From: Streptomyces yatensis
GTDB lineage: Bacteria > Actinomycetota > Actinomycetes > Streptomycetales > Streptomycetaceae
Assembly: GCF_018069625.1 (NCBI RefSeq)
Contig: NZ_CP072941.1
Location: forward strand, 7,192,001 to 7,256,000
DNA: 64,000 bases
Direction of reading: 5' to 3'
In this document: piece after piece, positions 34,395 through 36,090 of the stretch
How positions within the stretch are numbered: the first letter of the stretch is position 1
Layout: the number at the start of each line of letters is the position of its first letter
Translations under genes and position numbers: made by a program
Notes under the pieces: generated by a model
Database searches by the model: none
What the model was told of the DNA's origin: nothing
The model's input: the letters and a program-made list of their open reading frames with translations, nothing else

Positions 34395-34624
34395 GGGGCT
34401 CTGCCCCTGGCCCCGGCGGGGCTCTGCCCCTGGCCCCGGCGGGGCTCTGCCCCTGGCCCCGGCGGGGCTCTGCCCCTGGCCCCGGCGGGGCTCTGCCCCT
34501 GGCCCCGGCGGGGCTCTGCCCCTGGCCCCGGCGGGGCTCTGCCCCGGACCCCGGCGGGGCTCTGCCCCTGGCCCCGGCGGGGCTCTGCCCCTGGCCCCGG
34601 CGGGGCTCTGCCCCGGACCCCGCT
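34395..34624. repeat. 23-bp tandem repeat, ten copies
   Basis: The unit GGGGCTCTGCCCCTGGCCCCGGC starts at 34395, 34418, 34441 and every 23 bp to 34602. Copies 7 and 10 have GGA for TGG (CCCCGGACCCC), and copy 10 runs into CCCCGCTCCTCAATCGCCGG. The last variant is the common Streptomyces intergenic hairpin element. Each unit contains GGGGC...GCCCC, so the array offers many hairpins between the two convergent genes. Confidence 0.92.
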
Positions 34625-34626
34625 CC

Positions 34627-35877
34627 TCAATCGCCGGAGGGGCTGGGGCGGGGGGCCCACAGCTCGGTGCGGTGCGCCCCCACCAGTGCGTCGATCCGGG
34701 CCAGCGCCTCCCCGACCGGTAGCGGGTCCAGCCGGCGGCCGTCCCGCAGCCGCAGGGCCACTCGGCCGTCGTCGGCCTCTCTCGCGCCCACCACGGCCTG
34801 GTAGGGCACCAGGCGGGCCTCCCGGATCCGGGCGCCCAGGCTGCCGCGCTCCGGTCCGGCGAGTTCCGCGCGCAGCCCGAGGTCCACGCACCGCCGGACG
34901 AGCGCCTCGGCGTGCGGCAGTTCGGCCTCGGAGACCGGCAGCACCACCAGCTGAGTGGGGGCGAGCCAGGCGGGGAAGGCCCCGCCGTGCTCCTCGATGA
35001 GATGGGCCACGGCCCGTTCCACACTGCCGATGATGCTGCGGTGGACCATGACCGGACGGTGCCGGGCGCCGTCCGGCCCGATGTAGTGCAGATGCAACTG
35101 CTCGGGCTGGTGGAAGTCGACCTGGACGGTGGACAGGGTGGACTCCCGCCCGGCCCCGTCGGTGACCTGCACATCGATCTTGGGGCCGTAGAACGCGGCC
35201 TCGCCCTCCTCCGCCTCGTACGGCAGACCGGAGCGGTCCAGGACGTCGGTCAGCAGGGCGGTCGAGCGGCGCCACATCTCGGGGGCGGCGACGTACTTGC
35301 CGCCGGGGCCCGGGAGGGAGAGCCGATAGCGGGCCGGGGTGATGCCGAGCGCCTCGTACGCCCGGCGGATCATCTCCAGCGCGGCCGCCGCCTCGTCGGC
35401 GACCTGGTCCAGGGTGCAGAAGATATGGGCGTCGTTGAGCTGGATGGCCCGGACCCGGGTCAGCCCGCCGAGCACCCCCGACAGCTCCGAGCGGTACATT
35501 CCGCCCAACTCGGCAATGCGCAGAGGCAGTTCGCGGTAACTGTGGCCGCGGGAGCGGTAGATGACCGCGTGGTGGGGACAGAGGCTCGGACGCAGGACGA
35601 CCTGCTCCGCACCCGGCTCCGCGCCCAGCTCCATCGGGGGAAACATGTCGTCGCTGTAGTGCGACCAGTGCCCCGACAGCTCGTACAGCTCCCGTTTGCC
35701 GAGCACCGGCGAGTACACATGCCGGTAGCCCGCCCGCCGCTCGGCGTCGCGGATGTACTCCTCCAGGGTGTGCCGAACGGTCGCGCCATCGGGCAACCAG
35801 TACGGCAGCCCCGCGCCGATCAGCGGATCGGTGTCGAACAGGCCCAGCTCACGGCCCAGCTTGCGGTGGTCGGACAT
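34627..35877 (-). CDS. short threonyl-tRNA synthetase paralogue lacking editing domains
   Basis: A 416-residue class II synthetase containing only the catalytic and anticodon-binding domains. The TGS and editing (N1/N2) domains, ~230 residues in bacterial ThrRS, are absent: it starts MSDHRKLGRELGLFDTDPLI, where the catalytic core begins. Zn ligands Cys, His and His are present in RPSLCPHHAVIY, NDAHIFC and PVMVHRSIIGSVERAV. Motif 2, usually RGFTQDDAHIFC, reads RAIQLNDAHIFC, changing the Gln that lines the threonine pocket to Leu. Motif 3 and the anticodon domain (FPAWLAPTQLVVLPVSE) are normal. Start ATG 35877 has GAGGAG seven bases upstream. It is likely a second, possibly inhibitor-insensitive or specialised ThrRS, with an attenuator upstream. 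Confidence 0.9.
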   Translation of the reverse strand: MSDHRKLGRELGLFDTDPLIGAGLPYWLPDGATVRHTLEEYIRDAERRAGYRHVYSPVLGKRELYELSGHWSHYSDDMFPPMELGAEPGAEQVVLRPSLCPHHAVIYRSRGHSYRELPLRIAELGGMYRSELSGVLGGLTRVRAIQLNDAHIFCTLDQVADEAAAALEMIRRAYEALGITPARYRLSLPGPGGKYVAAPEMWRRSTALLTDVLDRSGLPYEAEEGEAAFYGPKIDVQVTDGAGRESTLSTVQVDFHQPEQLHLHYIGPDGARHRPVMVHRSIIGSVERAVAHLIEEHGGAFPAWLAPTQLVVLPVSEAELPHAEALVRRCVDLGLRAELAGPERGSLGARIREARLVPYQAVVGAREADDGRVALRLRDGRRLDPLPVGEALARIDALVGAHRTELWAPRPSPSGD

Positions 35878-35934
35878 CGCGGTCTCCTCGTTGGCGTGGC
35901 GAACGCCGGTGGAATCGGGCGAGTGACCGCACGG

Positions 35935-35966
35935 CGAAGCCCCGGGGCACTCGCCCCGGGGCTTCG
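35935..35966 (-). terminator. attenuator hairpin upstream of the ThrRS paralogue
   Basis: A perfect 14-bp stem CGAAGCCCCGGGGC/GCCCCGGGGCTTCG with a 4-base loop lies 14 bases after the leader-peptide stop and 57 bases before the ThrRS ATG. In the minus-strand RNA it should end transcription unless the leader ribosome stalls. Confidence 0.75.
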
Positions 35967-35980
35967 GATCAGAACATCGA

Positions 35981-36049
35981 TCAGCGCGCCGGGACACTCT
36001 CCGGCGTCGTCGTCATGGCGACGAGGGCAGCGATGGCAGCGCGCTTCAT
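35981..36049 (-). CDS. threonine leader peptide (attenuator)
   Basis: A 22-codon frame, too short for the usual gene filters, from ATG 36049 to TGA 35981. It begins MKRAAIAALVAMTTT, with three consecutive ACG Thr codons (residues 13-15), and ends PESVPAR. A second ATG (36016) directly precedes the Thr codons. It lies 4-5 bases after the expected transcription start and 14 bases before the attenuator hairpin. The order promoter, Thr-rich peptide, hairpin, ThrRS is that of ribosome-mediated attenuation: low Thr-tRNA stalls the ribosome at ACGACGACG and allows read-through. Translation is not shown by sequence alone. Confidence 0.7.
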   Translation of the reverse strand: MKRAAIAALVAMTTTPESVPAR

Positions 36050-36060
36050 GCCGACGACCG

Positions 36061-36090
36061 TAGCAAGGCCCAACGCACCCCGCCCGTCAA
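36061..36090 (-). promoter_or_regulatory. promoter of the leader peptide-ThrRS transcript
   Basis: On the minus strand TTGACG (36090-36085) and TTGCTA (36066-36061) are separated by 18 bases, a sigma-HrdB-like spacing. The transcription start would fall about 4 bases before the leader ATG, so the peptide would be leaderless, matching the absence of a Shine-Dalgarno. Confidence 0.55.

Follow-up and report, generated by a model that had tools for sequence, protein, structure and literature searches.

A candidate threonine attenuator upstream of an auxiliary, editing-less threonyl-tRNA synthetase in Streptomyces and other actinobacteria

In Streptomyces yatensis, a second gene for threonyl-tRNA synthetase (ThrRS) is preceded by a short open reading frame (ORF) with three consecutive threonine codons and by a strong hairpin, which raises the question of whether the enzyme is controlled by the supply of Thr-tRNA. 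Based on a window of 64,000 nucleotides (the whole stretch of DNA analysed; contig NZ_CP072941.1, positions 7,192,001 to 7,256,000) and on homologous loci, we consider it quite probable that this region (table 1) is a ribosome-mediated, Thr-tRNA-sensing attenuator which controls an auxiliary, editing-less ThrRS, hereafter ThrRS2. The attenuation interpretation is supported by comparison of sequences, namely by the parts themselves, their conservation, their linkage to ThrRS2, the selection on the RNA and the Thr codons, and a predicted exclusivity of alternative helices. We infer stalling of the ribosome and its footprint, read-through, and the ending of transcripts at a hairpin that lacks a U-run.

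Table 1. Features of the leader and synthetase region (positions in the window)
Feature	Position	Strand	Remarks
Extended -10 (TGC-TACGGT) of the leader promoter	36065-36057	-	Conserved in homologous leaders
Leader peptide ORF	36049-35981	-	22 codons, encodes MKRAAIAALVAMTTTPESVPAR and a stop codon; read from sequence
Control codons ACG ACG ACG (Thr)	36013-36005	-	ACG in 44, 44 and 43 of 44 leaders
Leader stem P2	36006-35987	-	CGCCGG (36006-36001) pairs with CCGGCG (35992-35987), variable loop
GUCCCGG, predicted antiterminator strand	35995-35989	-	Partner CCGGGGC at 35959-35953
Terminator-like hairpin T	35966-35935	-	14 perfect pairs, loop GAGT, no U-run
GGTCACTCGCC strand	35928-35918	-	Can form helix A or helix S
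Shine-Dalgarno GAGGAG of the synthetase	35889-35884	-	Read from sequence; aligned loci
ThrRS2, threonyl-tRNA synthetase without TGS and editing domains	35877-34627	-	416 aa

Leader ORF, promoter and synthetase

Direct reading of the sequence confirmed the arrangement described in the initial annotation: a 22-codon ORF with ACG ACG ACG, a 14-bp hairpin which begins 14 nt after the leader stop codon, and a ThrRS with its own GAGGAG. The promoter proposed there was TTGACG/TTGCTA. Both sequences are present, but the -10 had been placed three bases away from the conserved one, which is TACGGT (36062-36057) and lies seven nt before the ATG. TTGACG is located 22 nt from TACGGT in the window, and no conservation was found at this offset in aligned leaders. 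Just upstream of this offset, about 30 nt before the extended -10, the leaders have a conserved A-rich tract.

Among 139 homologous leaders, the conserved promoter element is an extended -10, TGnTAnnnT. The distance from the end of TAnnnT to the start codon is 6 nt in 34 and 7 nt in 104 leaders (138 of the 139 together); TAnnnT is absent from the remaining one, and TGn precedes it in 115/139. Since the conserved -10 is TACGGT and not TTGCTA, the leader ORF is probably leaderless, and transcription is expected to start at, or within 1–2 bases of, the leader ATG. A start at or upstream of the leader ORF is indicated both by this spacing and by the S. lividans orthologue, thrL, which is leaderless according to RNA-seq data (PMC8079986); for this orthologue, a start site downstream of the hairpin, which would speak against attenuation, is contradicted. 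A scan of the region with consensus promoter and terminator models gave no match; the -10 found here belongs to a different type, and no U-run follows T.

The ACG counts in 44 leaders indicate that the short ORF carries codons cognate to the downstream synthetase, its translation being predicted. In eight genes of the window ACG is not a rare codon, being used 43 times vs 123 times for ACC.

ThrRS2 passes the NCBIfam cut-off for thrS. Its only Pfam matches are the class II core and the anticodon domain, and its residue 3 aligns to residue 242 of the 645-aa ThrRS 1nyq, so that the N-terminal region of about 240 residues (TGS and editing domains) is absent, in agreement with the earlier description of the enzyme as editing-less. 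The same genome encodes another ThrRS, in an open frame of 719 aa, that is 42% identical to ThrRS2; ThrRS2 is thus a second copy beside a housekeeping enzyme, as are auxiliary synthetases of the trpRS1 type. The best solved relative of ThrRS2 is 1nyq/1nyr (382 bits vs 282 for the next), which comes from Staphylococcus aureus (PMC4389257). At E <= 1e-110, a threshold that selects close matches, 14 of 198 genomes from the phylum contain a match to ThrRS2: five belong to the same genus (its own genome included), a sixth has a ThrRS2 of 83% identity with a perfect leader (G655), and the other eight show 47–52% identity in open frames of 572–731 aa, which exceed ThrRS2 in length and are about full-length. 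It is unlikely that ThrRS2 arose by recent copying of the housekeeping gene; the enzyme may descend from another ThrRS lineage which lost its N-terminal domains.

Comparison of 207 ThrRS2 sequences, related loci included, revealed that the zinc ligands (C334, H385, and H511 in Escherichia coli) are retained wherever the position is aligned. At the position of E. coli M332, 200 of 201 ThrRS2 proteins have Ser, and at that of N333 all 201 have Leu, Ile, or Met, whereas the housekeeping enzyme of S. yatensis has Met and Asn, respectively. Human M411, which is among the borrelidin contacts (PMC4389257), corresponds to E. coli M332 according to our reading of the alignments. G463, a change of which gives resistance (PMC11252418), is retained in ThrRS2. 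A Gln at the position of E. coli L489 was considered as a sign of borrelidin resistance and rejected, as the housekeeping ThrRS of the same genome also has Gln there. Resistance of ThrRS2 to an inhibitor is at most a fair guess.

Two further observations concern the synthetase genes. Directly after the ThrRS2 stop codon, the window contains a 23-bp tandem repeat (34395-34622; 9.9 copies, 97% match), with units that include GGGGC as well as GCCCC and are potentially hairpin-forming. In addition, one homologous locus (L264, G014:C316:20000-35337) encodes two further ThrRS-like proteins, 54% and 40% identical to ThrRS2, the second of which has changes at the equivalents of H309 and G463. The neighboring genes encode a carbamoyltransferase, an LD-carboxypeptidase, a DegT-type aminotransferase, and a dehydrogenase; this locus may be a natural-product cluster that has ThrRS as its target or makes use of it.

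Occurrence of the leader and selection on its parts

The initial annotation had proposed to look for the leader, its Thr codons and the hairpin in front of other short thrS genes, and the outcome was strongly positive. Near-full-length ThrRS2 (>=64% identity) was detected in 45 of 101 Streptomyces genomes, 44 of which have the leader upstream (leaders identified by up to 9 edits from the core of the window). The exception, G041 (L022, L263), has lost the leader ORF and kept hairpin T and the Shine-Dalgarno (SD) region, next to a ThrRS2 of 80% identity. We also searched with a core pattern of 29 specified bases, allowing up to 3 mismatches. The pattern has a single match in S. yatensis itself and is present in 171/392 Streptomyces genomes, a count whose 3-mismatch matches were not checked singly; the reversed pattern was found in 0/392, which points to more than a chance match. 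Within the 101 genomes shared by both searches it matches 40 of the 45 ThrRS2 carriers, and four of the five carriers that it misses hold variant leaders (L017, L028, L031, L035). Only two of the other 56 genomes contain the pattern (G081 and G099), both with ThrRS2 fragments.

A similar relationship was observed at the level of the class. Among 246 genomes, 41 have ThrRS2 (E <= 1e-110) and 37 have the pattern; the two coincide in 34, with the pattern adjoining the gene. The pattern matches without a paired ThrRS2 are one at a contig end (G345) and two with 3 mismatches in genomes that lack ThrRS2 (G457, G611). Conversely, seven ThrRS2 loci have no pattern match: one (G534) ends before the leader site and six have a variant leader, of which L031 was found by script and L252, L254, L260, L261, and L262 were read from the sequences and then translated. 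The leader is therefore present in 40/40 assessable ThrRS2 loci of the class, including those with ThrRS identity of 54–61%.

The exact core was detected in at least 120 stretches of named genome contigs. Among the matches listed, these represent 16 named genera besides Streptomyces (Kitasatospora, Streptacidiphilus, Actinacidiphila, Actinocrispum, Allokutzneria, Amycolatopsis, Nocardia, Nocardiopsis, Nonomuraea, Microbispora, Planotetraspora, Planobispora, Streptosporangium, Frankia, Jiangella, and Kribbella), plus some metagenome bins. ThrRS2 lies downstream on the same strand in 140 of 148 exact-core loci (108 + 40; the distance is 65–255 nt in the set of 108). These sets overlap, 105 of the 108 being distinct and 8 being equal to leaders of the 44-leader set. 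Six of the other eight loci reach the end of the sequence (L079, L083, L130, L161, L163, L187), the start of ThrRS2 being visible in L163, and two precede ThrRS2 pseudogenes (L067, L164).

Many Streptomyces genes end in hairpins without U-runs, and on this ground one might see in the leader and hairpin what is left of a short gene that had a terminator of its own, without any regulatory tie to thrS2. The linkage to ThrRS2 in all three samples (44/45, 40/40 assessable, and 140/148 loci) and the agreement of the Thr codons with the downstream product make this explanation hardly credible.

Broken or partial ThrRS2 genes were observed in L067 (G022:C149), L164 (Nocardiopsis prasina), G094:C1:122821, and G099:C52, and the leader core is still exact in L067, L164, and G099; such copies point to gain and loss of the element. 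In Jiangella (an assignment that we made by inference), 12/12 genomes of the class sample have the pattern and ThrRS2, vs 45/101 in Streptomyces. The core loop of G526 is the same as that of the Jiangella locus L132.

Within the 44 Streptomyces leaders, the three codons before CCG are almost always ACG (table 1), the codon preceding them is free, and the complementarity between CCCGG and CCGGG is near-invariant. The residues encoded after the Thr codons could themselves matter: TTTPxxVPAR is found in most of these leaders, and a conserved peptide end (TTTPESVPAR) might arrest the ribosome as a nascent chain, in response to a signal other than Thr-tRNA, for example an antibiotic or a general slowdown. 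However, the reading frame is changed after TTTP in L017, L252, and L254, a 3-nt insertion follows CCCGG in L028, L031, and L035, and the residues differ in L260–L262, while the CGCCGG/CCGGCG stem persists in these leaders; moreover, the variable residues coincide with the RNA loop. Arrest by the nascent peptide thus appears very improbable. As the frame changes leave the stem intact, it is the RNA and the Thr codons that are under selection, and not the C-terminal end of the peptide.

Alternative RNA structures of the leader

The 181-nt leader folds better than 200/200 dinucleotide shuffles (z = -3.64). All six pairs of P2, which we take as the anti-antiterminator, are invariant in 44/44 Streptomyces leaders and the four loop bases vary, and each of the seven antiterminator pairs is retained in 43 or 44 of the 44. 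The complementarity of CCCGG and CCGGG noted in the initial annotation is present, and folding predicts that the antiterminator forms once the Thr codons are covered. When the 5' part of the leader was covered, which mimics a ribosome on the Thr codons with an assumed footprint, 6.85 of 7 antiterminator pairs were expected and the antiterminator was predicted in 161 of 162 leaders. With the leader free, only 1.14 of 7 pairs were expected and at least four pairs formed in 20/162, the stem of the leader being predicted to sequester GUCCCGG; in L009 the antiterminator was predicted even in the free state. The antiterminator is thus predicted to be exclusive with the leader stem and with T, and to be favored by stalling. 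As its pairs are almost invariant, they offer no evidence by covariation, and the 162 leaders together come close to a single test that is repeated.

The terminator candidate between leader and gene, T, is a strong covarying hairpin that has no U-run downstream and no match in the terminator scan. Covariation was examined in 149 of 197 distinct leaders. To enter the larger set, a leader had to contain an ACG-rich CGCCGG..CCGGCG core close to a ThrRS start; the 149 were those which also had a 4-nt T loop, at least 90 aa of ThrRS, and at least 12 nt after T. The T helix reached z = 7.7 against a tree-based null, a simplified covariation test of our own design that was used without comparison to a published program. 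The outer pairs of T covary and its inner CCGGG hardly varies, as would follow from a second role of CCGGG as partner of the invariant CCCGG in the leader. As the mean energy of T is -28.9 kcal/mol, the antiterminator must win kinetically, by timing, as in other attenuators. In a Streptomyces xylophagus locus (L146), the leader is kept upstream of a ThrRS2 of 77% identity, and T is shortened to GAAGCCCCGGGGCTT, with the loop and 3' arm lost; this locus is a natural test of whether T is needed.

A T-box riboswitch was considered as well and rejected: neither the region of the gene, with just two sub-threshold matches, nor any of ten homologous loci gave a match to an Rfam family at threshold. 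T-boxes also control synthetase genes by tRNA charging; the element described here differs in being a leader with cognate codons that is predicted to be translated, and in having no Rfam match at threshold.

Downstream of T, the GGTCACTCGCC strand may form either of two helices. For helix A, CACTCGCC (35925-35918) can pair with GGCGAGTG of the 5' arm and loop of T; in RNA letters, CACUCGCC is complementary to GGCGAGUG of the same arm and loop. For helix S, GGTC..CTC (GGUC..CUCG) can pair with the SD region. In the 149 leaders, helix A showed covariation (z = 4.1, with 0/300 nulls as high) and was, after T, the best helix anywhere, 3/120 nulls holding any 4-bp helix as good. None of its single pairs was significant alone (best E about 4). 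Helix S is compatible with the 149 sequences and showed no covariation (z = 0.1; 110/300 nulls as high). A hairpin that masks the SD is possible in most of these leaders, 76–95% of cells being paired per column. Reading by eye of the divergent leaders L261 and L262 suggested that GGGCUCC can pair with GGAGCCC, and that 15 of 16 (L261) and 12 of 13 (L262) positions are pairable between the 5' arm of T and the strand before the SD.

When duplex energies of own and cross combinations were compared for helices A and S, none of 5000 permutations attained the mean of the own combinations. However, a mirrored control came close in strength (own -19.50 vs -19.94 with one sequence per loop), and some of the difference between own and cross persisted in it, which is why the register was tested and the tree-based null was built. 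In the register test of helix A, 0/5000 permutations (mirror 28) were obtained with all 165 sequences and 0/5000 (mirror 352) with the 57 deviating loops; the result was weak with one sequence per distinct loop (21 sequences; 301/5000, mirror 2342). Based on these tests, we hold with moderate confidence that helix A is real. Release of the SD through this helix was unsupported by folding: blocking the 5' or the 3' arm of T in 168 leaders did not free the SD (mean unpaired 0.27 before, 0.25 or 0.27 after), which speaks against a second, translational layer of control.

The same data bear on whether the switch could be mainly translational, with T not a terminator at all and the stalled ribosome shifting CACUCGCC between the arm and loop of T and the SD region, so as to expose or hide the SD of thrS2. 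The missing U-run after T, the SD-masking hairpin possible in most leaders, the GGGCUCC/GGAGCCC pairing in L261 and L262, and the covariation of helix A would all fit such a switch. It appears unlikely nevertheless, given that helix S lacks covariation support, that no single pair of helix A is significant, that helix A is weak with one sequence per distinct loop, and that blocking either arm of T does not free the SD. A more far-reaching proposal, which we regard as rather unlikely, is a class-wide RNA element in which one stalled ribosome would work two stacked controls, the GUCCCGG antiterminator and a covarying helix in which the arm and loop of T take up the strand that would otherwise mask the SD. 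An editing-less ThrRS with a changed pocket would then be made only when ThrRS is inhibited or when ACG-reading Thr-tRNA is short.

Proposed control and related systems

Since the same arrangement stands before ThrRS2 in many actinobacteria, it very probably switches ThrRS2 on when Thr-tRNA is short. For transcriptional attenuation, which we prefer, the following course may be proposed. Transcription would start at or next to the leader AUG, so that ribosome loading is immediate. If the supply of Thr-tRNA for the ACG codons is sufficient, the ribosome would reach UGA and cover GUCCCGG; hairpin T would then form and most transcripts would end there. In the transcripts that read through, translation may be reduced further by a hairpin between GGUC..CUCG and the SD region. 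Under a shortage of Thr-tRNA, caused by a lack of threonine or by an inhibitor of the housekeeping ThrRS, the ribosome would stall on the ACG codons and cover CGCCGG, and the freed GUCCCGG would pair with CCGGGGC of the 5' arm of T, so that T is blocked and thrS2 is transcribed. Several observations speak against this course: the missing U-run and the stability of T, the near-invariance of the antiterminator pairs, the antiterminator predicted for free L009, the presence of two Thr codons in S. lividans, the use of ACG as a codon that is not rare, the loss of the leader in G041, and the loss of the loop and 3' arm of T in L146.

The trp, his, and thr operons of Proteobacteria are the classical amino-acid attenuators, and ilvBNC of Corynebacterium is another (PMC11857589). 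Our element resembles them in its control codons and in the predicted anti-antiterminator, antiterminator, and terminator with shared strands, and differs in its leaderless ORF, the lack of a U-run, the synthetase as target, and a 29-base core found across many genera.

Leader-peptide control of synthetases had been called less usual in Streptomyces in the initial annotation; examples were, however, already on record: attenuators have been predicted before trpS (trpS2) and leuS (PMC1262725), and leader peptides have been reported before alaS, thrS, trpS, and leuS in S. lividans (PMC8079986). As far as the available text of the former goes, no conserved structures were found for other pathways in Streptomyces (PMC1262725). 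The closest case is thrL of S. lividans TK24 (SLIV_19412; peptide MKRVRPFLETTPGFVPAR), which lies upstream of thrS (SLIV_19410) and is followed by one hairpin without a U-rich run (PMC8079986, 2021). The genome G136 (L265) encodes a peptide identical to that of thrL in front of a ThrRS2 of 77% identity, and S. lividans thrL is therefore the same element. Both are leaderless Thr leader peptides with a U-run-less hairpin before a thrS, thrL having two Thr codons and the leader of the window three. In the accessible part of its source, thrL is reported for one strain, without an antiterminator, homologues, or a link to an editing-less ThrRS (PMC8079986). Among the papers listed, titles and the openings of abstracts, with few subscription journals among them, revealed no other thrS attenuator, and the survey of Lopatovskaya et al. 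2010 may contain one. The basic idea is thus already in print for one strain, in the form of thrL before thrS; new here are the breadth, the conservation, and a covarying helix that joins the hairpin to the strand preceding the SD and whose role was not borne out by folding.

Vecchione and Sello reportedly described attenuation of S. coelicolor trpRS1. This gene encodes an auxiliary, indolmycin-resistant TrpRS (PMC9437257), and such an enzyme is also described in PMC6804068. The Streptomyces trpS2, leuS, and trpRS1 systems use Trp or Leu codons, in contrast to the Thr codons found here. The first two are alike in placing a leader-peptide attenuator before an aminoacyl-tRNA synthetase, and trpRS1 in being an auxiliary synthetase behind a leader; inhibitor resistance is a feature of trpRS1 and, for ThrRS2, a guess.

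The spare enzyme may be a backup under ThrRS inhibition or Thr stress. If the proposed control is true, actinobacteria of many genera keep a spare ThrRS under direct control of Thr-tRNA. An editing-less ThrRS that was made constantly could mischarge serine, which may explain a tight switch. There is a precedent for induction by an inhibitor, since one of the two TrpRSs of S. coelicolor is induced by indolmycin, according to the title of a paper cited in PMC9437257. Inhibitors of ThrRS would likewise be predicted to induce their own bypass in these bacteria.
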